The notes beneath the pieces were generated by a model, which ran no database searches, was not told the origin of the DNA, and worked only from the letters and a program-made list of their open reading frames with translations. Of a DNA stretch of 23,769 nucleotides, positions 2,421-23,106 are shown piece after piece. The stretch is taken from positions 1 through 23,769 of the IMG/VR virus record IMGVR_UViG_3300027977_001253. One strand, 5' to 3'. The translations under genes were made by a program, and so were the position numbers. The stretch's first letter is position 1. Every line of letters begins with the position of its first letter. The stretch is from a virus.

Positions 2421-2451
2421 AAAAAAAGGAGGGTTTTTAATCCTCTTTTTT
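2421..2451. terminator. Bidirectional terminator between convergent genes
   Basis: An A7 run and GAGG on the left pair with CCTC and a T6 run on the right, with one bulged G and a loop of about ten bases. The oligo-A/oligo-T flanks let it work in both directions. It lies between the OmpA-like gene and clpC, and its right arm overlaps the last clpC codons. Confidence 0.7.
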
Positions 2452-4503
2452 CTTTCTACCTTTTTTCTTTGGTTCTGGTTTTGACCTATCTTCTATTTCT
2501 ATTGTTTGATCATCACCCTCACCTTTTACAAATAACATATATTCAGTACCCTCAACAACTTCACTAAGAAGTATTTTTTCTGAAATCAAATCCTCAATCT
2601 TATTTTGGATTGCTCTTTTAATTGGTCTTGCACCGTATGTTTCATCAAACCCTACCTTAGAAATAATATCAATTACCGATTGCTCATAACTGAAGTTATA
2701 TCTCATTGATTTTAATCTTTTAATAAGGATATCAATTTCAAGTTTAACAATTTTATCAATGTGTTCTTTTTTAAGTGAGTTAAAAATAATAACATCATCA
2801 ATTCTATTTAAAAATTCAGGAGCAAAAAACTTACTTAATTCTTTCTTAAGAATGTCTCTTTTATGTTCCTCAAGAACCTCCTCACTTGTATTGTTTGTTT
2901 TAAATCCCATTCCACCACCAAAATCTTGGATTTTTCTAACCCCAATGTTTGATGTCATAATTATTAAACAATTTTTAAAGTTGATTTTTCTTCCAAGACC
3001 ATCAGTCATATGACCATCATCTAACATCTGTAGTAATGTTGAAAAAATGTCTTTATTTGCTTTCTCAATCTCATCAAATAAGATTACAGAGTATGGTTTA
3101 TTTTTTACTTGTTCTGTAAGTTGTCCACCTTCTTCGTGACCAACATATCCTGGAGGAGACCCAATTAATCTAGAGATGGTATGTTTTTCTTGGTATTCAG
3201 ACATATCAACTCTAATTAAACTATCTTCACTACCAAAAATTTCTTTGGCTAATCTCTTTGCCAAAAACGTTTTACCAACACCGGTTGACCCCAAGAAAAT
3301 AAATGACCCAATAGGTCTATTAGGATCTTTAATACCAACTCTATTTCTTCTGATTGATTTTGATATTTTTCCAACTGCCTCCTCTTGTCCGATAACACTA
3401 GTATTTAAAGTTGTTTCAAGATTAACCAATGAATTTTTTTCATCAATATTAATTTTACTTACAGGAATTTTAGTCATATTAGATACGACTTCATAAATTA
3501 AATCTTCTGGAATATGTCTTTTACTATTTTTAAGTTCTTCCTCAAATTTTCTTTTCCCATCTTCCAATTGAATTAATATGTTTTTTTCTCTATCTCTAAG
3601 TTCTGCCGCTAATTCATAATTTTGTTTTTTAATAACTTCAGCCTTCTCCTTTTTTATGTTTTGAGATATCTGTTTTAATTTTTCAATATGTTCCGGAAGT
3701 TTAATATCTATTTGCATTCTTGAACCGACCTCATCTAAGATATCAAAGGCCTTATCTGGAAATTCTCGGTCTGTTATATACCTATCTGCCAATTCCACAC
3801 ATAAACGTAATGACTCATCACTATAGGTTACATTATGATGTTCTTCATATTTACCCTTACTTTGTTTTAAAATTTCTAATGTTTCTTCTTTTGTTGAAGG
3901 GTCAACAATTATTTTTTGAAATCTTCTTTCAAGAGCCCCATCCTTTTCAAAATGTCTACGATATTCATCTAATGTTGTTGCTCCAATACACTGAATTTCT
4001 CCACGAGATAATGCGGGTTTAAATATGTTTGATGCATCTAACGACCCTGAACTATTACCAGCTCCAACCATTGTATGTATCTCATCAATAAAAATAATTA
4101 TATTTGGGTTACTTTGTAATTCTTCAATAATCACCTTCATTCTTTCTTCAAATTGACCTCTATATTTTGTACCGGCAACAACCGAATTAATATCTAACGA
4201 AACAATTCTTTTTTCAGATAAATTTTTAGGACATTCCCCATTATGTATCATCATTGCAAGACCCTCAACTATTGCCGTTTTACCTGCTCCAGGTTCTCCA
4301 ATAATAATAGGGTTATTTTTCTTTCTACGAGATAAAACTTGGGCAATTCTAAAAATTTCTTTTTCACGACCAATCACTGGGTCTAATTTTCCTTGACTTG
4401 CAAGTTTAATTAAATCTTTACTGAAATTATCTAAAACTGGAGTTCCTCCTCCACCATCAGGTTTTTTTTTATTTTTATCCCCATCATCAATAAATTCTAT
4501 CAT
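2437..4503 (-). CDS. clpC: ClpC-type AAA+ protein unfoldase lacking the N domain
   Basis: A 688-residue double-AAA+ Hsp100 unfoldase. D1 has Walker A GEPGAGKT (69-76), Walker B IIIFIDE (135-141) and Arg-finger region LERRF (191-195). A short ClpC-like middle segment (about 270-340) contains a UVR-like helix (NYELAAELRDRE). D2 has Walker A GSTGVGKT (405-412), Walker B VILFDE (473-478) and sensor-2 GARPIKRA. Between them and FAPEFLNRID lies GGGMGF, aligning with the IGL/VGF loop by which ClpA/ClpC dock on ClpP, so it probably works with host ClpP. ClpC proteins usually exceed 800 residues; here the protein starts almost directly at D1, so the adaptor/substrate-binding N domain is absent. The Lys-rich tail is unusual. 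It is antisense to its neighbours and has no clear copy of the local promoter box. Sequence around the ClpP loop looks Bacteroidota-like, suggesting host origin. No clpP is in the window. Confidence 0.93.
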   Translation of the reverse strand: MIEFIDDGDKNKKKPDGGGGTPVLDNFSKDLIKLASQGKLDPVIGREKEIFRIAQVLSRRKKNNPIIIGEPGAGKTAIVEGLAMMIHNGECPKNLSEKRIVSLDINSVVAGTKYRGQFEERMKVIIEELQSNPNIIIFIDEIHTMVGAGNSSGSLDASNIFKPALSRGEIQCIGATTLDEYRRHFEKDGALERRFQKIIVDPSTKEETLEILKQSKGKYEEHHNVTYSDESLRLCVELADRYITDREFPDKAFDILDEVGSRMQIDIKLPEHIEKLKQISQNIKKEKAEVIKKQNYELAAELRDREKNILIQLEDGKRKFEEELKNSKRHIPEDLIYEVVSNMTKIPVSKINIDEKNSLVNLETTLNTSVIGQEEAVGKISKSIRRNRVGIKDPNRPIGSFIFLGSTGVGKTFLAKRLAKEIFGSEDSLIRVDMSEYQEKHTISRLIGSPPGYVGHEEGGQLTEQVKNKPYSVILFDEIEKANKDIFSTLLQMLDDGHMTDGLGRKINFKNCLIIMTSNIGVRKIQDFGGGMGFKTNNTSEEVLEEHKRDILKKELSKFFAPEFLNRIDDVIIFNSLKKEHIDKIVKLEIDILIKRLKSMRYNFSYEQSVIDIISKVGFDETYGARPIKRAIQNKIEDLISEKILLSEVVEGTEYMLFVKGEGDDQTIEIEDRSKPEPKKKGRKKKED

Positions 4504-4676: not shown

Positions 4677-4922
4677 ATGGCAATCACTAAAGAAGAAATC
4701 AAAGGAACAAAAATTTTAAATGAGGTTGAGTCCTCTAATATCGTTAAGACGGAATATGATACCGAAACTAAAAAAATGATTACCGAATTTAAAAATGGTA
4801 TAAGATATGAATATGAAGAGGTACCTCACCAAACATACACTCAATTTAGGTCCGCTAAATCACAGGGGTCATTCTTTAACACAAACATTTCAAAGGTATT
4901 TAAATATAAAAAGTTAAGTTAA
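4677..4922 (+). CDS. KTSC-domain small protein
   Basis: An 81-residue protein whose residues about 16-80 fit the KTSC domain (named for its occurrence at some lysyl-tRNA synthetase C-termini): S-x-I-V-x-T-x-YD, then F-x-NG-x-x-Y-x-Y-x-x-VP, Y-x-x-F-x-x-A-x-S-x-G, and a closing FNxxI. KTSC proteins are common in phages and bacteria and their activity is unknown. The start is the ATG at 4677: the longer frame from 4572 adds a hydrophobic/basic segment translated from a terminator hairpin and AT-rich leader. It is followed after 25 bp by the nucleotidyltransferase gene, which has its own box, so the two need not be one operon. Confidence 0.75.
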   Translation: MAITKEEIKGTKILNEVESSNIVKTEYDTETKKMITEFKNGIRYEYEEVPHQTYTQFRSAKSQGSFFNTNISKVFKYKKLS

Positions 4923-10024: not shown

Positions 10025-11794
10025 ATGGGTTTATCTAAAGAACAGTTAATGATAGAGTATGTGAAGTGTATGAAAGACACCCCATATGCTCTTAGAACTT
10101 ATTTACAAACATACGACAACACAGTATCAAAGTATGTTCCATTGGGATTATTTCCTGACCAAATTTCCTTATTAAATGATTACGAGGAATTTGAGGAGAA
10201 TATTGCATTAAAATATAGACAAGCTGGTGTAACTACGGTAACCGCCGCTTGGATATCTAAACGATTAGTTTTTGCAAAAAAAACACAACCTGAGAAAATA
10301 CTAATAATTGCAAATAAATTGGACACCTCAATGGAGATGGCTAATAAGATTCGTGCCTTTGTTGACCAATGGCCTTCTTGGGTTGGTGCTGGGTTTTCGG
10401 TAGACAAAAATTCACAAAAACATTATAAACTAACTAATGGTAGTGAAGTTAAGGCCGTTGCAACATCAAAGGATGCCTTACGTGGATTTACCCCAACAAT
10501 ACTTGTATTTGATGAGGCGGCATTTATTGAAGCCGATAGTGATTTTTGGGCGGCTTGTATGGCATCCCTATCAACGGGAGGTAAGGTAATTGTGGTTTCT
10601 ACACCTAATGGATACGACCCAATTTATTACGAGATTTACGACCAATCGTTAAAAGGAATGAATAATTTCAAAATCTCTGAGATGTTTTGGTTTAGAGACC
10701 CAAGATACTCAAAAGATTTATATCTAGTCCCAACAGACGATTTAGTTCATTATTTACTACATAAAGATGAACAAGATCCGTTAAAACACGTATCGTTTGA
10801 ACATATTGATCCGTACCATAGAGATTATGATGAACTAACATCATATTTTAAAAAGGGTTATAAACCCTGTTCTTCTTGGTATGAAAAAATGGTTAAAAAA
10901 CTTAAATACGATAAAAGAAAAATTAATCAGGAGTTAAATTGTGAATTTTTAGGTTCTGGAGATAACGTATTTGACAACAAACAATTAGAAGATATTAAAA
11001 ATAATTTCATAGAAGAACCTAAAACAAAGTTAATGGGTAATTCTTTATGGATGTGGGAAGAACCTAAAGAGGGTCATAAATATATAATGGGAGTTGACGT
11101 TTCTCGTGGGGATAGTGAGGATTTTTCATCAATACAAATAATTGATTTTGATACTAGGGAACAGGTTTTAGAATATGTGGGTAAAATACCACCTGACGCT
11201 TTGGCAGAAATTGCATATAAATGGGGGTTAATGTATAGTGCATTTATAGTTACCGACATCACCGGTGGTATGGGGGTATCAACATCTAGAAAATTACAAG
11301 AACTTGGTTATAAGAATTTATATATTGATGGTTTTGATACCACAAATATATGGAATTATAATGCAAAGGCTCAGGAAAAAATACCTGGTATAAGTTTTAA
11401 TAATAAAAGAGTTCAAATTATTGCATCTTTTGAGGAATACGTCAGACATAAATTTAAAATTAAAAGCATTCGTTTATATAATGAAATGAATACTTTTATA
11501 TATGTTAATGGTAGACCAGATCACCAAAGGGGACAACACGATGACCTTATAATGGGAATATCAATGGCAATATATGTTGGTGAAACATCTTTTGCAAAAC
11601 TTGAGAAAGTAACCGAAAAAACAAAGGTTATGATTGAATCGTGGACTGTAAGTAATAACGATAGTGTGGGTAAAGATATTTACTTTAATCCGGTACTTCC
11701 AAATTTGAATGCGGCCTCTCACAGATACAACACGAATTCAGGTCCCTCAAAAGACGATTATATTAAACACGGTTGGTTATTTGGCGGTAGATAA
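10025..11794 (+). CDS. terL: Terminase large subunit (T4 gp17-like ATPase/nuclease)
   Basis: The 589-residue packaging motor pumps DNA into the prohead through the portal and cuts the concatemer. The ATPase domain has a Walker A-like KYRQAGVTT (63-71), adenine-motif-like LPDQ equivalent FPDQISLL near 43-50, Walker B ILVFDEAAF (D163/E164), and a coupling motif VSTPNG (191-196). The RNase H-fold nuclease domain has GVDVSRGDSEDFS (D358), VTDITGGMG (D411) and HDDLIMG (D506/D507), the expected acidic triad. Length is close to T4 gp17 (610). The usual P-loop lysine is Val69; a lysine (K63) sits five residues before the glycine, as in lambda-type deviant Walker A motifs. It is followed by a small gene and the portal gene, without the tail sheath and tube genes that separate 17 and 20 in T4. 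Confidence 0.95.
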   Translation: MGLSKEQLMIEYVKCMKDTPYALRTYLQTYDNTVSKYVPLGLFPDQISLLNDYEEFEENIALKYRQAGVTTVTAAWISKRLVFAKKTQPEKILIIANKLDTSMEMANKIRAFVDQWPSWVGAGFSVDKNSQKHYKLTNGSEVKAVATSKDALRGFTPTILVFDEAAFIEADSDFWAACMASLSTGGKVIVVSTPNGYDPIYYEIYDQSLKGMNNFKISEMFWFRDPRYSKDLYLVPTDDLVHYLLHKDEQDPLKHVSFEHIDPYHRDYDELTSYFKKGYKPCSSWYEKMVKKLKYDKRKINQELNCEFLGSGDNVFDNKQLEDIKNNFIEEPKTKLMGNSLWMWEEPKEGHKYIMGVDVSRGDSEDFSSIQIIDFDTREQVLEYVGKIPPDALAEIAYKWGLMYSAFIVTDITGGMGVSTSRKLQELGYKNLYIDGFDTTNIWNYNAKAQEKIPGISFNNKRVQIIASFEEYVRHKFKIKSIRLYNEMNTFIYVNGRPDHQRGQHDDLIMGISMAIYVGETSFAKLEKVTEKTKVMIESWTVSNNDSVGKDIYFNPVLPNLNAASHRYNTNSGPSKDDYIKHGWLFGGR

Positions 11795-12191: not shown

Positions 12192-13991
12192 ATGGAACAA
12201 AACTTTAATCAACTAACAGTTTGGCAAAGGTTATCAAAGACATTCGGACCAAATTCATTATTGGGTCAAGATGTTCCGACGTACAAATTTGACAAAAAAG
12301 AATTATTAAAAACTAGAGATAGAAATGAGTTTGAAAAAGAAAAATTACAAGCTCAGCAGTCATTATATATGGCTAATCAATGGACTAAAATAGAGAGTAA
12401 TCTTTATACACAAGCCATTTATTATGAACCAACAAGAATTGCGGCGTTTTATGATTATGAATCTATGGAATTTACCCCAGAGATTTCTACCGCTTTAGAT
12501 ATATATGCAGAAGAATCAACAACACCAAATGAAGATGGTCATATTTTACAAATTTACTCCGAATCAAAAAGAATAAAAGGAATATTAGCAGATTTATTTA
12601 ACAACACTTTGGATATTAACACTAACCTACAGATGTGGATTAGAAACACTTGTAAATATGGTGATAATTTTGTTTATCTTAAATTAGATTCTGAAAAAGG
12701 AATAATTGGTTGTGTTCAATTACCAAATATCGAGGTTGAGAGGCTTGAAAGAGGAATGTCACCTAGAACCCCCAATTCAGAAGTTAGACCCGACGAAAAG
12801 GGTTTAAGATTTAAGTGGAAAGAAAAACAAATGGAATTCAATACATTTGAAGTTGCCCACTTTAGATTATTAGGTGATGATAGAAAACTTCCTTATGGAA
12901 CATCAATGCTTGAAAAGGCAAGAAGGATTTGGAAACAATTGGTTTTGTCTGAAGATGCTATGTTAATTTATCGTACATCAAGAGCGCCAGAAAGAAGAGT
13001 ATTTAAGGTATTCGTTGGTAATATGGACGATAAAGATGTTGAACCATACGTACAACGTGTTGCAAACAAATTTAAACGTGACCAAATTGTTGATAATAAA
13101 ACGGGAAATGTTGATTTACGTTTTAATCAAATGGCAGTTGACCAGGATTACTTTATTCCAGTTCGTGACGCAACTCAAACAATGCCAATTGAAACGTTAC
13201 CTGGAGGAACAAACTTATCTGAGATTGCTGACATTGAGTATATTCAAAAGAAACTTGTTTGTGCATTAAGAATACCAAAAGCGTATCTTGGATTTGAAGA
13301 ACCGGTTGGTGATGGTAAAAATTTATCATTACTTGATATACGTTTTGCTAGAACAATTAATAGAATACAAAAAAATATTTTATCTGAATTAAATAAGATT
13401 GCGATTGTCCATTTATTTTTATTAGGATTTGAGGATGAATTACAAAACTTTACATTAGGATTAAACAATCCATCTAAACAAGCAGACCTATTAATGGTTG
13501 ATGTGTGGAAAGAAAAAGTTTTACTATATAAAGATTTGGTAAGTGAAATACCAAACTCATTGGCACCGACCTCAGCTACTTGGGCTAAGAAACATATATT
13601 TGGATTCTCAGATGAAGATATTAAATTGGATACCCAAAGACAAAGAATGGAAAGAGCGGTTGCTGCTGAACTTGCAAATACCGCAACAATCATAACCCAT
13701 ACAGGAATGTTTGATACTATTGATAGGTTATATAAAACAGTTTCTGGAACAACCCAATCTGGTGGATCACCACCAGAAGGAGGAGAAGGTCCGGAAATGG
13801 GAGGACCACCATCCCCACCGGCAGGAGGACCACCAGAAATGGGAGGACCACCACCAGGAGGACCTGAAGGTTTACCAGAATCAAAAAACAAGTTAGAAAA
13901 TTTACTATTAGAAACAGATGACGATATGTATATTACAAACTCATCGTTAGGTGATATGGAAAAAGAATTACTTAAAATATTGAAAGATTGA
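12192..13991 (+). CDS. Portal protein (T4 gp20-like)
   Basis: The 599-residue protein forms the dodecameric vertex through which DNA enters, nucleates prohead assembly and docks the terminase. The gp20-type pattern is clear: an N-terminal segment rich in Gln/Tyr, then YDYESMEFTPEISTALDIYAEE, the MWIRNTCKYGDNFVYLKL block, VAHFRLLGDDRKLPYGTSML, a long RAPERRVFKVFVGN segment, the clip/crown region (DATQTMPIETLPGGTNLSE), and a helix with RIPKAYLGFEE. T4 gp20 is 524 residues; the extra length is mostly C-terminal, where residues about 523-560 are a Gly/Pro/Glu tract ending in LPESKNKLENLLLE. Order after terL and before the protease matches T4 head-gene order. Confidence 0.93.
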   Translation: MEQNFNQLTVWQRLSKTFGPNSLLGQDVPTYKFDKKELLKTRDRNEFEKEKLQAQQSLYMANQWTKIESNLYTQAIYYEPTRIAAFYDYESMEFTPEISTALDIYAEESTTPNEDGHILQIYSESKRIKGILADLFNNTLDINTNLQMWIRNTCKYGDNFVYLKLDSEKGIIGCVQLPNIEVERLERGMSPRTPNSEVRPDEKGLRFKWKEKQMEFNTFEVAHFRLLGDDRKLPYGTSMLEKARRIWKQLVLSEDAMLIYRTSRAPERRVFKVFVGNMDDKDVEPYVQRVANKFKRDQIVDNKTGNVDLRFNQMAVDQDYFIPVRDATQTMPIETLPGGTNLSEIADIEYIQKKLVCALRIPKAYLGFEEPVGDGKNLSLLDIRFARTINRIQKNILSELNKIAIVHLFLLGFEDELQNFTLGLNNPSKQADLLMVDVWKEKVLLYKDLVSEIPNSLAPTSATWAKKHIFGFSDEDIKLDTQRQRMERAVAAELANTATIITHTGMFDTIDRLYKTVSGTTQSGGSPPEGGEGPEMGGPPSPPAGGPPEMGGPPPGGPEGLPESKNKLENLLLETDDDMYITNSSLGDMEKELLKILKD

Positions 13992-14014: not shown

Positions 14015-14731
14015 ATGAAATTTGGAATATTAAAAACAAAAATAGAAAAGTGCCTTACCGAATCTTATGAAAACGGTACATTTAAAAAAGATGTGTTCCT
14101 TTTTAAGGAACTTGTTCTAAACAATAAAAACGTAAGCAAACTTTATTATCTGTACGATGAATTATCGAAGAATAAAGGACTAAACGAATCTTTAGGTTCT
14201 GAATATATTAATCAAAGTACGATTATTTATGAGAACATTATTAATAAAATTGATAAGTTAAATCTTAAAGAATTAGCATTATGGTTAGGTCATGTAAAAT
14301 CTGGTAATAACTATAACGATATTGATAATTTATTCTCCTCAAGTGTTGTAAATTTAGAGGAAAAAATTAAAAGTAAAAAAACTATATTAGAAAACTTAAA
14401 GAAACAACCAATAACCGAAGAAGAAACCCTAAAGGTCCCAATTGATAAAATGGTAAAAGTTGCTAATAAAACAGTTAATGATTATATCACAACCCTAGGG
14501 GAATCCGATAAGAAAAAATTAACATCAATTTTAAATGAAAGTAATAATAAGTTACTTATTAAGTACGATGTTTTAAAAGAAACGGTAATTGACAAATTAG
14601 AAGATCTTAAATCTGAGGAATCTAACAACGAGGTTTTAGGAAGAATAAATGAAACTATTGTTAAAGTTCAAAAAGAATCCTTTGATAAGTTAAGTTATTT
14701 CAAACTATTACAGTTGAATAAGAATCTTTAA
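14015..14731 (+). CDS. Helical protein between portal and protease, possible prohead core component
   Basis: A 238-residue Lys/Glu/Asn-rich, mostly alpha-helical protein with no Cys, no signal peptide and no catalytic motif. Several segments have coiled-coil-like spacing (about 110-130 and 190-215). A possible L-T-E/S protease site lies near residue 16. In T4 the portal and protease genes are separated by the prohead core genes 67 and 68; position and composition make this a candidate functional analogue, but I see no sequence support for homology. Its TAA shares TTAA with the stop of the convergent bS21 gene, with no terminator between, so the two transcripts must overlap. Confidence 0.55.
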   Translation: MKFGILKTKIEKCLTESYENGTFKKDVFLFKELVLNNKNVSKLYYLYDELSKNKGLNESLGSEYINQSTIIYENIINKIDKLNLKELALWLGHVKSGNNYNDIDNLFSSSVVNLEEKIKSKKTILENLKKQPITEEETLKVPIDKMVKVANKTVNDYITTLGESDKKKLTSILNESNNKLLIKYDVLKETVIDKLEDLKSEESNNEVLGRINETIVKVQKESFDKLSYFKLLQLNKNL

Positions 14732-14913
14732 TCTTTGATTTTAATTTTTTGTATGTAAATTGCTTTTTGCAACTCTTGTCTTTTTTCAACCGACTTTTTA
14801 GTAAATTCTTTTCTGTAATTTAGGTGACTATTTTGCCTTGTTTTTATCACCTTACTTTTTAATTCTTTTAGGGATCTTTCAATATCCCCTCTTTTAACTT
14901 TTACTATTAACAT
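14728..14913 (-). CDS. rpsU: Phage-encoded ribosomal protein bS21
   Basis: The 61-residue protein matches bS21 over its full length: strand MLIVKVKRGD, helix IERSLKELKSKVIKT, then YRKEFTKKSVEKRQE and QKAIYIQ, corresponding to the family's R-x-x-F-x-x-P/K-S-V-x-x-R and K-A-x-Y-x-Q segments. bS21 sits on the small-subunit platform beside the 16S rRNA 3' end. Tyr53 aligns with Bacteroidota Tyr54, which I recall contacts and helps hide the anti-Shine-Dalgarno; E. coli bS21 has no such Tyr. The middle (RQNSHLNYR) is diverged from cellular forms, so this is not a recent host copy. The A-rich leader lacks a Shine-Dalgarno, unlike the autoregulated flavobacterial rpsU I recall. A weak box (GATATCTAT, 14941-14949 on this strand) lies 27 bases upstream. 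It is antisense to all head genes. Confidence 0.88.
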   Translation of the reverse strand: MLIVKVKRGDIERSLKELKSKVIKTRQNSHLNYRKEFTKKSVEKRQELQKAIYIQKIKIKD

Positions 14914-14980
14914 ATTTTTGTTTTATTTTCTTATTTATTGATAGATATCGTAAAAATACGTAAACTTATTAAAAATAAAC

Positions 14981-15002: not shown

Positions 15003-15470
15003 ATGAAAAAAGGAAAAACCACAAAAATAAATGGTTTCAGAACATCTAAAGTACATTACGGGACCGTCGATTCAAAAGAATTTAAATCACTTTATTTAAA
15101 TATTCAAACTTGGTCGGAACCAAAAATTGAATCTGAAAATTGGACCCGTGTGGTATTAAATATGAACGGGGCAATAAAACATTCGGTTTATCAAAATATA
15201 GACAAAACATTATTTGACGACAAATTTATTGTAGATATGGACTTAAGAACCAGCGGACTACAACTAAAGAAAAAATCATTTATGAATTTAGAAATAAATT
15301 TATTTTTAAACCAAGAAATAGATTTTAAATCACCAAAATTAAAAAAATCTTTAAAAAATTTAACTAAAGAAATTTATAACGATGTCCTAACCGGGAATGA
15401 CTATTTCAAGTTCTTTCTTACAAAAAATGGAAATTATAAACCCGTAAAGGCAATATTAGAAAAAGTTTAA
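15003..15470 (+). CDS. Unknown protein beside the prohead protease
   Basis: A 155-residue, basic, beta-rich protein that I do not recognise. The N-terminal 20 residues are Lys/Thr-rich, followed by alternating strands (LYLNIQTW, WTRVVLNMNG, FIVDMDLRTSG, FMNLEINLFL) and a C-terminal Lys-rich helix pair. No catalytic motif, signal peptide or Cys. Start is ATG 15003. It lies between bS21 and the protease, in the interval where T4 has prohead core genes. The strand pattern would also fit a small DNA- or RNA-binding fold, which is speculation. Confidence 0.55.
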   Translation: MKKGKTTKINGFRTSKVHYGTVDSKEFKSLYLNIQTWSEPKIESENWTRVVLNMNGAIKHSVYQNIDKTLFDDKFIVDMDLRTSGLQLKKKSFMNLEINLFLNQEIDFKSPKLKKSLKNLTKEIYNDVLTGNDYFKFFLTKNGNYKPVKAILEKV

Positions 15471-15491: not shown

Positions 15492-16229
15492 ATGAACGGT
15501 TATAAAATTTTAGGACCTAGAGATACGGGTAAGGGTATTCTTATTGAGTATGATGCGGGATACATTAATCCAAGAGAAGGTAGAAATTACGATTTATTAA
15601 AAGAGTCCAAAAATTTTATGGACTATTCAAAACCATTTGAATTCTATGCGGTCTTACAAAAATATGATACACCAAATAGAAATGGTAGAGTTTATCCAGA
15701 AAAAATATTAAAGAGAGAATCTGAAAATTATAAAAAAATGATTGAGAAAGGAACTTCTCTTTCTGAATTAAATCACCCAGAATCCTCTTTAATTGATTTA
15801 GATAGAGTATCACATATGATAACTGAAGTTTGGTGGGAAGGTCCTGTTTTGTTAGGTAAATTAAGATTACTTACAAGTCCAGGATTTCACGAAAGAGGAA
15901 TATGTTCGACTAAGGGTGATATTGCAGCAAACTACTTACGTCAAGGTGTAACTCTAGGGATTTCCTCTCGTGGTGTTGGATCACTTAAAAAGGTTGGGGA
16001 AAGAAATGAGGTACAAGATGATTTTGAATTAATTTGTTTTGACCTGGTATCATCACCGTCCACTCCTGGAGCTTATTTATTCTTAGATAAGAACGATAGA
16101 GGTAAGTATGATGAGAATCTTGAGGAGGAGACAAAAATGAATATAGAAAGAGCAACTGGAATGGAATCCACGTCTATTGATAAGACAAAAAGTTTGATGG
16201 ATAAGTTATCTTCATTTCTTGACAAATAA
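15492..16229 (+). CDS. Prohead maturation protease (T4 gp21-like)
   Basis: A 245-residue serine protease of the phage prohead type. Features in order: FYAVLQKYDTPNRNGRVYP (51-69), a strand/loop that recurs in T4-like prohead proteases; catalytic His candidate H95 in ELNHPE; WWEGPVLLGKLRLL; and catalytic Ser candidate in GISSRGVGS (S158/S159), followed by the FDLVSSPSTPGA segment. T4 gp21 is 212 residues. It cleaves scaffold and capsid protein inside the prohead, typically after Glu in a hydrophobic-x-Glu context. An L-K-E/S site at about residues 36-39 could be a self-cleavage site. The gene sits between portal and capsid genes as in T4. Confidence 0.9.
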   Translation: MNGYKILGPRDTGKGILIEYDAGYINPREGRNYDLLKESKNFMDYSKPFEFYAVLQKYDTPNRNGRVYPEKILKRESENYKKMIEKGTSLSELNHPESSLIDLDRVSHMITEVWWEGPVLLGKLRLLTSPGFHERGICSTKGDIAANYLRQGVTLGISSRGVGSLKKVGERNEVQDDFELICFDLVSSPSTPGAYLFLDKNDRGKYDENLEEETKMNIERATGMESTSIDKTKSLMDKLSSFLDK

Positions 16230-18252: not shown

Positions 18253-20109
18253 ATGGGAGCATTATTAGAATCAGGTCTTGTAGGTAACATCGGGTTAAAA
18301 CACCTTAAAGTTATCAAAGAAGACACTATAAACAAATGGGACAGATTAGGGTTCCTTGAAGGTCTTAAAGGCCACCTAAAAGAAAACGTAGCACAGTTAT
18401 ATGAAAACCAAGCTTCTTTCTTGATTAACGAAGCAACTTCAGAAGGTTCTAACGGAGCATTTGAAACAGTTGTTTTCCCTATCGTAAGAAGAGTTTTCTC
18501 TAAATTGTTGGCTAACGACATCGTATCTGTACAAGCAATGAACTTACCTATTGGTAAATTGTTCTTCTTTGTACCTAAAATCCAAGGTTACCAATCGGCA
18601 GGTGCCACTGGTGGTGAACATTATGCACCAATCGGTTCTCCAACTGCGGTTAACAGTGGTACTAACGATCCTAACCAAGGTTATGGTACGGCATCAGTAA
18701 CAAACTTCCCTTACGCAAAAAATCTTTATGATTTATTTTATGAAGGTGGTGAAGCTGGTTTAGATCCTCCAGGATTATTTGATTACTCTAAAGGTCAGTG
18801 GACTGCGGTTACTGCTCTTACAGACATCCAAGTATGGTCTAGTGGTAATCTAGTTGATTCGGCAGCACCAACAGGTAATATCAGAAAAATGATTTTGAAA
18901 ATTTCAGGATTCAGAACTTCAGGAGCTGGTAAATTAGTAGGTCCTGATGGTAATGAAATGGATTCAGAAACATTCTTATCTGACCTTAAAATTATTGCAA
19001 ATCAACCAACTTTATCCGCATCTACAACACCTTGTAATGTACTTGCAGACGAAAACGGTACTCCAATTCCATTGTTATTTAGAGTTGTTACTCAACAATA
19101 TGGTAAAGGAATTGTTCAATACGGTAATCAATCGGCAACGGTTTTTGCAACAAATGGAAGTAACGCAGGTAATGGTGGTTCTTACTACGATATCTGTGAT
19201 GCTAACGGTTATATCTACGTTGAGGTAGATTTATCTTGTCCTGTATGTGCTGACTGTAACTCAACATCTTTAGATGGTTACACAGGTACTACAATTTATT
19301 CAGGAGCATCAGGTGATTCATTTACTTCAGTATACAGAACTTACAAAAATATGGAGTTTGAAGACCAAATTGGTGAAGTTTCTTTTGATTTAGAATCAGT
19401 AACTGTTTCTGTATCTGAAAGAAAATTAAGAGCACAATGGTCTCCAGAAATGGCACAAGACGTTGCAGCATTCCACAACATTGACGCTGAAGCTGAATTG
19501 ACGGCTTTATTGTCAGAACAAGTGGCTGCTGAAATTGACCGTGAAATTTTACGTGACTTAAGAAAAGGAGCGGCTTGGAACCTACGTTGGGATTACAACG
19601 GATGGAGAAGAATTGCTCAAACTACATCTTATACTCAAAAAGATTGGAATCAAACTTTAATTACGGCAATCAATCAGTTGTCAGCACAAATCCACAAATC
19701 TACTTTAAGAGGTGGAGCTAACTGGATTGTTGTTTCTTCTGAGGTTTCTGCAATATTTGATGATTTAGAATACTTCCACGTATCTAACGCATCTCCTGAA
19801 CAAGACCAATACAACATGGGTATTGAAAGAGTTGGTACTCTTGCAGGACGTTACCAAGTTTACCGTGACCCTTACTTCCCACCAAACACAGTTTTGTTAG
19901 GACATAAAGGAACATCATTGTTAGACACAGGTTACATCTACGCACCGTACGTACCTCTACAATTAACACCTACAATGTATAACCCGTTCAACTTTACTCC
20001 GATTAAAGGAATAATGACGAGATACGCGAAAAAAATGGTAAATAATCGCTTTTACGGAAGAATTACTGTTGATGGTGTTAGAACATTCGATTTAAGAGAA
20101 TTGAGATAA
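18253..20109 (+). CDS. Major capsid protein (T4 gp23-like)
   Basis: The 618-residue capsid protein has the gp23 hallmarks: an N-terminal helical propeptide (KWDRLGFLEGLKG), the FPIVRRVFSKLLANDIVSVQAMNLPIG block (T4: MVRRAIPNLIAFDICGVQPM), KNMEFEDQIGEVSFDLE with the following RKLRAQWSPEMAQDVAAFHNID segment, the TLAGRYQVYRDPYFP block, and YNPFNFTPIKGIMTRYAKKM near the end. A predicted maturation site I-N-E/A follows residue 60, close to the T4 cleavage after residue 65. It is about 100 residues longer than T4 gp23 (521), mainly from an insertion at about 120-350 that includes a CPVCADC triple-Cys motif (C329, C332, C335). Codon use shows more C-ending codons than neighbours, fitting high expression. 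It has no promoter-like box and probably depends on the scaffold transcript. Confidence 0.95.
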   Translation: MGALLESGLVGNIGLKHLKVIKEDTINKWDRLGFLEGLKGHLKENVAQLYENQASFLINEATSEGSNGAFETVVFPIVRRVFSKLLANDIVSVQAMNLPIGKLFFFVPKIQGYQSAGATGGEHYAPIGSPTAVNSGTNDPNQGYGTASVTNFPYAKNLYDLFYEGGEAGLDPPGLFDYSKGQWTAVTALTDIQVWSSGNLVDSAAPTGNIRKMILKISGFRTSGAGKLVGPDGNEMDSETFLSDLKIIANQPTLSASTTPCNVLADENGTPIPLLFRVVTQQYGKGIVQYGNQSATVFATNGSNAGNGGSYYDICDANGYIYVEVDLSCPVCADCNSTSLDGYTGTTIYSGASGDSFTSVYRTYKNMEFEDQIGEVSFDLESVTVSVSERKLRAQWSPEMAQDVAAFHNIDAEAELTALLSEQVAAEIDREILRDLRKGAAWNLRWDYNGWRRIAQTTSYTQKDWNQTLITAINQLSAQIHKSTLRGGANWIVVSSEVSAIFDDLEYFHVSNASPEQDQYNMGIERVGTLAGRYQVYRDPYFPPNTVLLGHKGTSLLDTGYIYAPYVPLQLTPTMYNPFNFTPIKGIMTRYAKKMVNNRFYGRITVDGVRTFDLRELR

Positions 20110-20200: not shown

Positions 20201-20209
20201 TATATTTAT
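20201..20209 (+). promoter_or_regulatory. Late promoter-like box TATATTTAT before the HNH gene
   Basis: The box includes the first two bases of the ATG at 20208, which argues that the real start is the next in-frame ATG at 20214, 4 bases after the box, matching the spacing at 4948, 11806 and 23119. Confidence 0.55.
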
Positions 20210-20213
20210 GTAT

Positions 20214-20894
20214 ATGAGAAAAATAGAATTAACAGAATTGCAAGTTAAGGAAATAATAAAGTTATACACTGAAGATTTATTAGGTTCCCCCACTATTAGT
20301 GAAAAATTAAAAATACATAAAACAATTATCTTAAATACTCTTAGGGATAATGGTATTGTCCTTGGACCATCAGGTAGAAGAAATATTGGTGGTAAAAAAG
20401 TTGCCGATAAAAAATGGAGAGATTCTAATAAAGAGTATATGTCTAATAAATCCAAAACTTGGTATGAACAAAACAAAGAACATCGTAAAGAATACCTTAA
20501 AGAATACCGTGAAAAAAATATAGATAATATTAGAAAAACAAAACGAGATTACGAAAGAAATCGTAAAGCAAGAGACCCCATCTATAAACTAATATCTAAT
20601 TTCAGGACCGCAATATACCAGGTATTAAAGGAGAGTAATGTAGAAAAGAACAATCATTACTTTGACATACTACAATACACACCTGAAGAACTAATAACAC
20701 ATTTAGAATTACAATTCAAGGACGATATGAGTTGGGATAACTATGGAATTTGGCATGTTGACCATAAGTTACCTATAACATCATTTGATATACAGGAGAT
20801 GGGAGACAAAGAATTTATGTCTTGTTGGGCCTTAGATAACCTCCAACCAATGTGGGGTATTGAGAATATACGTAAATCAAATAAAACCGAATAA
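20214..20894 (+). CDS. HNH homing-type endonuclease
   Basis: A 226-residue protein. The N-terminal 50 residues form a helix-turn-helix-like DNA-reading segment (EIIKLYTEDLLGSPTISEKL then a recognition-like helix). Residues about 65-125 are a Lys/Arg/Tyr-rich charged helix, typical of DNA-binding linkers. The C-terminal HNH domain has WHVDHKLPI (180-188), CWALDNLQPMW (204-214) and a final EN-x-x-K, giving the His, Asn and His/Asn residues of the fold. The position, immediately after the essential capsid gene and closed by its own terminator, fits a free-standing homing endonuclease. The first ATG at 20208 lies in the promoter-like box and is not favoured. There is no sign of an intron in the capsid gene. 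Confidence 0.85.
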   Translation: MRKIELTELQVKEIIKLYTEDLLGSPTISEKLKIHKTIILNTLRDNGIVLGPSGRRNIGGKKVADKKWRDSNKEYMSNKSKTWYEQNKEHRKEYLKEYREKNIDNIRKTKRDYERNRKARDPIYKLISNFRTAIYQVLKESNVEKNNHYFDILQYTPEELITHLELQFKDDMSWDNYGIWHVDHKLPITSFDIQEMGDKEFMSCWALDNLQPMWGIENIRKSNKTE

Positions 20895-21024: not shown

Positions 21025-23106
21025 ATGAAAAATTCACTATTTATTTTTTTTGTAATACTAACAAGTTTTTTTGTTAGATCACAAGTAAGTTCTTATACGT
21101 TTGGAACATCAACCGGAACATACACACCAATAGTTGGTGGGGTCAATTATAATAACTTTACAAGTTGGTCAAATACCAACTTTTTAGATGATAATAATTC
21201 GGCGGTATTAGAATCAATCGGATTTAACTTTGTTTATAATGGAACAACGTATACCCAATTTGGGGTTAATGCTAATGGATTTATATCACTGGGGTCATTA
21301 CCAACTAGTAGTTATTATCCATTATCAATAGGTACGTCAAATAATGTAATATCGGCAATGGGTGTTGATTTAATAGGACGTGGGTCGTTATTAGCAAATA
21401 GAACAACTGGGAGTGCGGTAATTACAATTACAGGTGGAGACATATCTCTAATATCGGTTGGGGATAAGGTAAGTGGTACGGGTATTCCTGCAGGCGCCAC
21501 AGTATTATCTAAAACCGCAACTACAGTTACAATTTCTGCAAATGCAACAACTTCGGGTACCGGATTTCATTTTAAATTTAGTAGGTCAACATTTGGTATT
21601 AGATTTCAAACAATAGGAACATCACCAAATAGGACATTAGTGGTCCAATGGACAGGATGGCAAAGATATACCACATCAAGGTTTTTTGGTGAATTATATA
21701 ATTTTCAAATAAAATTAAACGAAACAACAAATACTATCGTGTTTGTTTATAATATATTAGGTCCTGGTTTAGGTCCTGACAGTGCTACGCCAACAACATT
21801 TCAGATAGGTTTAAGAGGAACCTCAAATACCAATTTTAATAATAGAACAACTACAACAAATTGGTCGTCAACTACGGCTGGAACATTAAACAGTTCAACA
21901 GTTACATTATCAAGTACGGTTAAACCAACTGCAGGATTAACATATACGTGGACACCGCCCGTTATTCCCGTTTGTTCAGGAACACCAAATCCAGGAAACA
22001 CACTTTCTTCTTCATTAACATCACCACCAAACGGAACCGTAAATCTTTCACTACAAAACACCACAACTGGTACAGGGGTAACTTATGTGTGGGAGAGTAG
22101 TACAGATAATTCAACATGGACAACCTTTGGTTCCTCATCGGCTACACAAACATCACCACCAATCACATCACCTACTTGGTTTAGATCTACCGTTACTTGT
22201 TCAGGAAATAGTGGGATATCAACACCTATTCAAATAACATTATCATATTGTACATATAATATAACTAATAATGATCCTACAGGTATTACTTCTGTAACGT
22301 TTGGTACAATATCAAATACAAGTATTGGTGGTCCATCCTACAGTGATTTTACCACACAATCAACTACCGTAGAACAGGGTGGAATTTATCAATTAAATGT
22401 TAATGTGAACACAGATGGTAATTGGACGGTAAATACAAAGGTTTGGATAGATTGGAATCAAAATTACATATTTGAAGTAGAAGAAGAGTATTCTTTAGGT
22501 AGTGCGTTAAACACTACTAATGGAATTACATCATTATCCCCTTTAAATATAACTGTACCAACTGGAGCAACTTTAGGAGAAACTAGAATGAGAATAGTAT
22601 CAGTTGAAGCCAGTGATCCTGCACCACTAGCGTGCGGTACACAACTTTACGGCGAAGCTGAGGATTATAAACTAACAATAACACCACCAACAGGACTTCC
22701 TGTAGAGTTACTATATTTTGATGGTATTACATATCCTTTGTTTAACTCACTTAAGTGGTCAACCGCATCGGAACATAACTCAGATTATTTTGAGGTAGAG
22801 AGAAGTGTTGATGGTGAAATATGGAAGGTTGTTGGTAGTAAATTGGCTTCAGGTAATAGTACGGTAGTTATTAATTATAGTTATTTAGATTCTTTTGATG
22901 ATTTGGTAATACATTATTATAGATTAAAACAGGTTGATTATGATGGTCAATATAAGGTGTACGGACCTATTGGTTTAGATAATACAAAATCAGTTAAAAA
23001 AGTTGTTAAATACATTAACATTTTAGGTCAAGAAGTAAGTTCAGAAACAAACGGGCTTATTTTTGAGGTATATGAAGACGGAACTATGAAAAAGATTATT
23101 AGGTGA
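21025..23106 (+). CDS. Exported host-like surface protein: signal peptide, GEVED domain, T9SS-like C-terminus
   Basis: A 693-residue protein with an N-terminal signal peptide (Lys2, hydrophobic 5-16, predicted cleavage near FFVRSQ, typical of flavobacteria). Residues about 23-310 form a beta-sandwich of the kind found in Bacteroidota exported proteins (YTFGTSTGTY, NANGFISLG), interrupted at about 121-185 by a module with VGDKVSGTGIPAGATV. Residues 316-408 look Ig/PKD-like with paired Cys. Residues about 410-552 match GEVED (KVWIDWNQNYIFE, then GEAEDYKLTI at 543-552). Residues 558-650 contain LPVELLYF, SLKWSTASEHNSDYFEVERS and YYRLKQVDYDGQY, the usual lead-in to type IX secretion sorting domains. 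The tail (about 656-693: YINILGQEV, then GLIFEVYEDGT) resembles the end of a sorting domain but lacks the YPNP entry strand. Secretion to the host surface is likely; a superinfection-blocking or adhesion role is inference. Confidence 0.8.
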   Translation: MKNSLFIFFVILTSFFVRSQVSSYTFGTSTGTYTPIVGGVNYNNFTSWSNTNFLDDNNSAVLESIGFNFVYNGTTYTQFGVNANGFISLGSLPTSSYYPLSIGTSNNVISAMGVDLIGRGSLLANRTTGSAVITITGGDISLISVGDKVSGTGIPAGATVLSKTATTVTISANATTSGTGFHFKFSRSTFGIRFQTIGTSPNRTLVVQWTGWQRYTTSRFFGELYNFQIKLNETTNTIVFVYNILGPGLGPDSATPTTFQIGLRGTSNTNFNNRTTTTNWSSTTAGTLNSSTVTLSSTVKPTAGLTYTWTPPVIPVCSGTPNPGNTLSSSLTSPPNGTVNLSLQNTTTGTGVTYVWESSTDNSTWTTFGSSSATQTSPPITSPTWFRSTVTCSGNSGISTPIQITLSYCTYNITNNDPTGITSVTFGTISNTSIGGPSYSDFTTQSTTVEQGGIYQLNVNVNTDGNWTVNTKVWIDWNQNYIFEVEEEYSLGSALNTTNGITSLSPLNITVPTGATLGETRMRIVSVEASDPAPLACGTQLYGEAEDYKLTITPPTGLPVELLYFDGITYPLFNSLKWSTASEHNSDYFEVERSVDGEIWKVVGSKLASGNSTVVINYSYLDSFDDLVIHYYRLKQVDYDGQYKVYGPIGLDNTKSVKKVVKYINILGQEVSSETNGLIFEVYEDGTMKKIIR

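Follow-up and report, generated by a model that had tools for sequence, protein, structure and literature searches.

Why would a phage carry its own gene for ribosomal protein bS21, and what might the product do to the host's choice of mRNAs? Bacteroidota ribosomes ignore Shine-Dalgarno (SD) sequences because bS21 helps to hide the anti-SD, and autoregulation of the host bS21 gene, rpsU, ranks with the clearest examples of ribosome specialisation in bacteria. Genetics and biochemistry in F. johnsoniae demonstrated that removing bS21 or its C-terminus shifts ribosomes towards rpsU mRNA and away from mRNA without an SD, and that rpsU is autoregulated via ribosomes lacking bS21; phage bS21 was discussed accordingly (McNutt et al. 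2023, PMC9976891). Chen et al. 2022 (PMC9723584) distinguish five clades of jumbo myoviruses that infect Bacteroidetes and encode bS21, and propose that the phage protein substitutes into ribosomes. The core idea considered below is therefore already stated in these two papers; here we examine what a further locus and its relatives add to it.

A bS21 gene among the head genes

The window, by which we mean the entire 23.8-kb virus record analysed here, contains a complete open reading frame of 61 codons, from ATG to stop, at 14728-14913 on the minus strand. The first-pass annotation had called this a full-length bS21 on the strand opposite the head genes, and the call holds. Pfam Ribosomal_S21 (PF01165) matches the product at 30.2 bits, above the curated cut-off of 27 bits, over profile positions 2-52 of 55 (near full length), and the closest solved chains in a sequence search are both bS21 (9i5v_9, E 4e-9; F. 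johnsoniae 7jil_z, E 7e-8). An AlphaFold model (pLDDT 87.8) has two helices, at residues 11-35 and 40-60; the seven PDB matches returned by a fold search with this model are all ribosome entries, though weak on their own (best E 0.81). A chance open reading frame is ruled out by the family match, by conservation across loci and by purifying selection (below), and the gene is a real phage-encoded bS21, firm in both identity and phage context.

Genes for the terminase large subunit (10025-11794; PF03237, phrog_2), a T4-like portal protein (12192-13991; PF07230), a prohead protease (15492-16229; PF03420) and a T4-like major capsid protein (18253-20109; PF07068) all lie on the plus strand. Within this cluster bS21 is convergent with a gene for a hypothetical protein (14015-14731, plus strand), their stop codons overlapping, and the two are on opposite strands in all 148 loci that hold both. 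On its other side a divergent gene (15003-15470, plus strand) begins 89 bases away. Chen et al. describe the same layout, in which a reverse-strand bS21 is flanked by two hypothetical genes and lies among TerL, portal, protease and MCP. The window and its relatives also share with those myoviruses an aromatic residue 54, divergence in the N-terminal half, Clp genes, a GC content of ~32% and, among the relatives, lengths of ~290 kb; the window adds a member to that published group. Its host is likely Bacteroidota, because the portal shares ~40% identity with its counterpart in Flavobacterium phage immuto, a GEVED-domain protein is encoded, and SD sequences are absent. Pelagibacter phage HTVC008M is likewise a myovirus encoding bS21 but differs in its alphaproteobacterial host and origin (PMC6375957); a tblastn search of 50,697 phage records with the window protein (E 0.01) gave no match and no cultivated phage relatives. 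Elsewhere on the plus strand, the window encodes a KTSC-domain protein (4677-4922; PF13619, 63 bits), a protein that is HNH-endonuclease-like by eye, with no Pfam match, directly after the capsid gene (20208-20894), and the large GEVED-domain protein (21025-23106), whose start looks by eye like a signal peptide, as in Bacteroidota secreted proteins.

A bS21 homologue occupies the same place in 148 of 161 phage loci (window included; loci partly overlapping). That constancy within the head cluster, and virion packaging, which Chen et al. raise as possible, could point to a non-ribosomal role, for instance as an RNA-binding or virion-associated protein. We regard such a role as improbable, since the ribosome-facing residues are conserved and the gene is preceded by a promoter-like element of its own instead of the head-gene motif (both below).

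The divergent gene, which sits where Chen et al. have 'bS21_CN', encodes 155 residues with a predicted alpha/beta fold (pLDDT 89.7), for which there was no significant PDB structural match and only marginal matches in sequence searches. It is found in 146 of the 148 bS21 loci, and its candidacy as an obligate partner of bS21 is weakened by its persistence in three loci lacking bS21. These three (L109, L139 and L145) retain portal, protease and divergent neighbour, with bS21 missing from the gap. By eye, L139 and L109 hold promoter-like remains (TATATTTATATCAACA; TAATATTTGGGTAATATATCAAA) without a coding sequence, those of L109 sitting inside a GGGTAATATA...TATATTACCC inverted repeat. Barring assembly error in the fragments, this suggests that bS21 has been lost in a few relatives that otherwise keep the locus, and that it is useful but not essential.

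A ClpA/ClpC-like AAA+ unfoldase (2437-4503, minus strand; Pfam AAA_2 and ClpB_D2-small, phrog_4871) shares its strand with bS21 in all 14 loci holding both. McNutt et al. raised the speculation that host bS21 might be attacked by a protease of phage origin, and the unfoldase is a possible candidate for that activity or for a partner of bS21. Phage ClpP and phage bS18 were both considered as companions of bS21, and neither gave a match in the window or in four longer relatives (possibly fragments). The unfoldase would consequently need host ClpP; sequestration of the 16S tail by phage bS21 would need host bS18 and bS6.

Conserved and divergent parts of the protein

Ribosome-contact residues were taken from McNutt et al. 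and Chen et al., and positions in the phage set follow F. johnsoniae numbering. The window's K-A-I-Y53-I-Q aligns with K-A-A-Y54-I-Q of F. johnsoniae, Tyr53 corresponding to Tyr54 because the phage protein is one residue shorter at position 10, and the K-A-x-Y-x-Q segment noted at first pass is indeed kept. Among 73 distinct phage proteins residue 54 is aromatic throughout (64 Y, 5 H and 4 F, counting histidine as aromatic), as Chen et al. also found for their phages, and it is Y in all 54 proteins of the Flavobacteriia set. K17, K20, K22, I24, T26, K40, S42 and R46 are invariant in the phage proteins, and A52 and Q56 are kept at 0.96 or more. Aligned with Flavobacteriia bS21, the phage protein retains its C-terminal segment and aromatic residue 54, and it shares family, Tyr54 and C-terminal segment with the product of host Flavobacteriales rpsU (PMC9976891).

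The middle of the protein is diverged, as the first reading of the sequence had it, with 5 of 15 identities for the window protein in residues 21-35 versus 9 of 16 in residues 43-58; Chen et al. likewise report divergence in the N-terminal half. In alignment this is more than drift, the phage set having prevailing residues of its own. A phage-specific signature spans residues 21-31 (I24 at 1.00, Q28 at 0.99, V23 at 0.93, R27 at 0.88 and S21 at 0.82), and the prevailing phage residues set against those of the Flavobacteriia set are S21/R21, V23/F23, I24/D24, R27/G27, Q28/T28, N29/V29, S30/R30 and N33/R33. Judged by a median pairwise dN/dS of ~0.17 over 523 pairs, phage bS21 is under purifying selection; ~7% of pairs exceed 1, probably with small counts behind them. 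When 108 sequences were placed in a tree, the phage proteins grouped together (support 100/98; 64 columns only, bootstrap not settled), and a single origin is valid for this set alone, which was gathered as close relatives. Adjoining the phage clade is a bacterial bS21 (L304, genome G056) whose leader is without an SD.

Chen et al. placed the divergent positions where mRNA would bind, and on their reading alterations to the N-terminal helix and turn, which lie close to the path of the mRNA, would bias initiation towards phage leaders. The phage-specific residues 21-31 are in keeping with such specialised ribosomes. A-richness, however, is the only shared feature of phage leaders that we found for them to read, and host mRNAs are SD-less as well (PMC9976891). 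We would call this bias possible but would stop short of expecting it; it is compatible with the substitution of host bS21 that we favour below. The first-pass annotation had offered, as its second option, that the phage protein alters the occlusion of the anti-SD. The conserved C-terminus lends that no support, while the fixed residues in 21-31 leave room for altered mRNA handling.

Leaders and the promoter-like element upstream of bS21

The leader of the window gene (14914-14937, minus strand) is A-rich and was described at first pass as having no SD. This proved correct: it pairs at only -2.5 kcal/mol with the assumed sequence of the 16S 3' tail, and the extended SD of autoregulated rpsU is absent. 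None of 76 distinct phage bS21 leaders has an SD at -8 kcal/mol or below (best pairing -7.3 kcal/mol), whereas all 58 distinct host rpsU leaders, in a set gathered by F. johnsoniae query and mostly from Flavobacterium, have a very strong one (-17.6 to -23.3 kcal/mol). The contrast is unchanged by the 16S tail lengths, leader lengths and alternative anti-SD tried. In a phylum-wide Bacteroidota set, which includes lineages without Tyr54, 45 of 72 leaders pair below -13 kcal/mol. Two Bacteroidota genomes (G106, with L305 and L306; G091, with L312 and L285) carry two bS21 copies each, one with a strong-SD leader and one without, and may be a cellular parallel of the phage genes.

Absence of an SD is the norm for phage genes generally, pairing below -8 kcal/mol being found before 9 of 572 large phage ORFs versus 6 of 572 shuffled leaders. 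With SD before phage genes not beyond chance, we reject phage bS21 as an SD-promoting factor. A phage could in principle gain from either direction of altered translation, and the few proteins with H or F instead of Tyr54 might be read as freeing the anti-SD in favour of SD-bearing phage mRNAs; given these counts and a residue 54 that is aromatic throughout, we consider this very improbable. What the phage gene does lack, in having no SD, is the feature on which host rpsU autoregulation depends. On the leader data and the published F. johnsoniae work, phage bS21 should escape that autoregulation.

Upstream of the leader, a footprint of 21 sequences thinned to <85% identity revealed three near-invariant boxes, which in the window's clade follow the order GTTTATTTT, TAnnTTTG, two bases, [AG]TATATATCAA. 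In the window these lie on the minus strand at 14972-14980 (GTTTATTTT), 14951-14958 (TATTTTTA, one mismatch to TAnnTTTG) and 14938-14948 (ATATCTATCAA), the last two each departing from consensus. In flavobacterial sigma-A promoters TAnnTTTG serves as the -7 box, occupying -12 to -5 in F. psychrophilum (PMC9723704), and by that spacing the predicted transcript start would fall inside the TATATATCAA box. The GTTTATTTT box, found at a similar distance in a second subclade too, is possibly a -33 region or a signal of the divergent gene.

The element is dedicated to bS21. Of 66 TATATATCAA sites in the phage loci, 51 are directly before bS21, and a search of 944 kb of phage loci (partly overlapping, so not all independent) for the combination TAnnTTTG-N1-3-[AG]TATATATCAA gave 42 occurrences, all of them ahead of bS21 and no more than 60 bases away. 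Each of four longer records (two of ~290 kb) contains a single copy of the element, allowing one mismatch at most, immediately upstream of its bS21 match. A different motif, ATATTTAT, precedes 287 of 577 large ORFs, versus 2 on the reverse complement and 6 in shuffled leaders; it is strand-specific and lies most often 14 bases before the ATG. In the window it stands before most head-region genes (e.g. those at 14015, 15492, 12192 and 23119), relatives are alike, and it is a candidate promoter of this phage group. It occurs in only 9 of 76 bS21 leaders, all of the second subclade. From these motifs, bS21 in the window's clade appears to be its own transcription unit with a host-type promoter, unlike the genes with the head-gene motif. 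Chen et al. report late-stage bS21 expression, which would also fit a constitutive promoter.

Proposed substitution into host ribosomes and the rpsU loop

We hypothesize, and hold it to be rather probable, that phage bS21 takes the place of the host protein in 30S subunits, that the anti-SD is kept hidden, and that the protein is made without the host rpsU brake. Incorporation and displacement of the host protein are steps that we infer. The conserved C-terminus would keep the 16S tail sequestered, and ribosomes would stay suited to SD-less phage mRNAs. Host rpsU is best translated by ribosomes lacking bS21, through its very strong SD; if the anti-SD is kept hidden, its translation should stay low. 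Because the phage gene is SD-free and has a separate promoter-like element, production of its protein should stay free of this control while bS21 accumulates in ribosomes. The first-pass annotation had suggested that the phage version may replace host bS21, keep ribosomes blind to SD sequences and escape host autoregulation, and this fits the aromatic residue 54 in 73 of 73 proteins, the SD-less phage genes and the SD-free bS21 leaders. Judged from the sequences, the phage protein probably replaces host bS21 and leaves the anti-SD hidden.

A simpler alternative is that the phage copy tops up bS21 as host supply falls late in infection, with mRNA choice unchanged. Such a supplement would keep the C-terminal contact residues and the predicted two-helix fold, the reported late expression agrees with it, and an SD-free gene would get steady translation. 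The fixed signature in residues 21-31, however, exceeds the needs of a mere copy, and we consider a plain supplement unlikely, if less so than a role outside the ribosome.

Three observations count against the substitution that we favour. Residues 21-35 are strongly unlike those of host bS21, so that the two proteins may not function alike; bS21 is missing from three relatives that have the remaining locus; and Pelagibacter phage bS21 does enter E. coli ribosomes, but those ribosomes kept only ~5% activity (Mizuno et al. 2019, PMC6375957).

In comparison with McNutt et al. and the searched parts of the main text of Chen et al., what is new here is the contrast between SD-free phage leaders and strong-SD rpsU, the bS21-only promoter-like element, and the loss of bS21 in relatives that keep the locus. 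It is tempting to carry substitution one step further, with the control loop of the host turned on the host itself: phage bS21, SD-free and with a dedicated promoter, would fill ribosomes and shut off rpsU translation, making the takeover self-reinforcing. We offer this extension tentatively, with rather less confidence than substitution itself. In any case, a regulatory SD is missing from every distinct leader examined in this large group of bS21-carrying phages, whose bS21 is predicted to be uncoupled from the host loop while acting on it.
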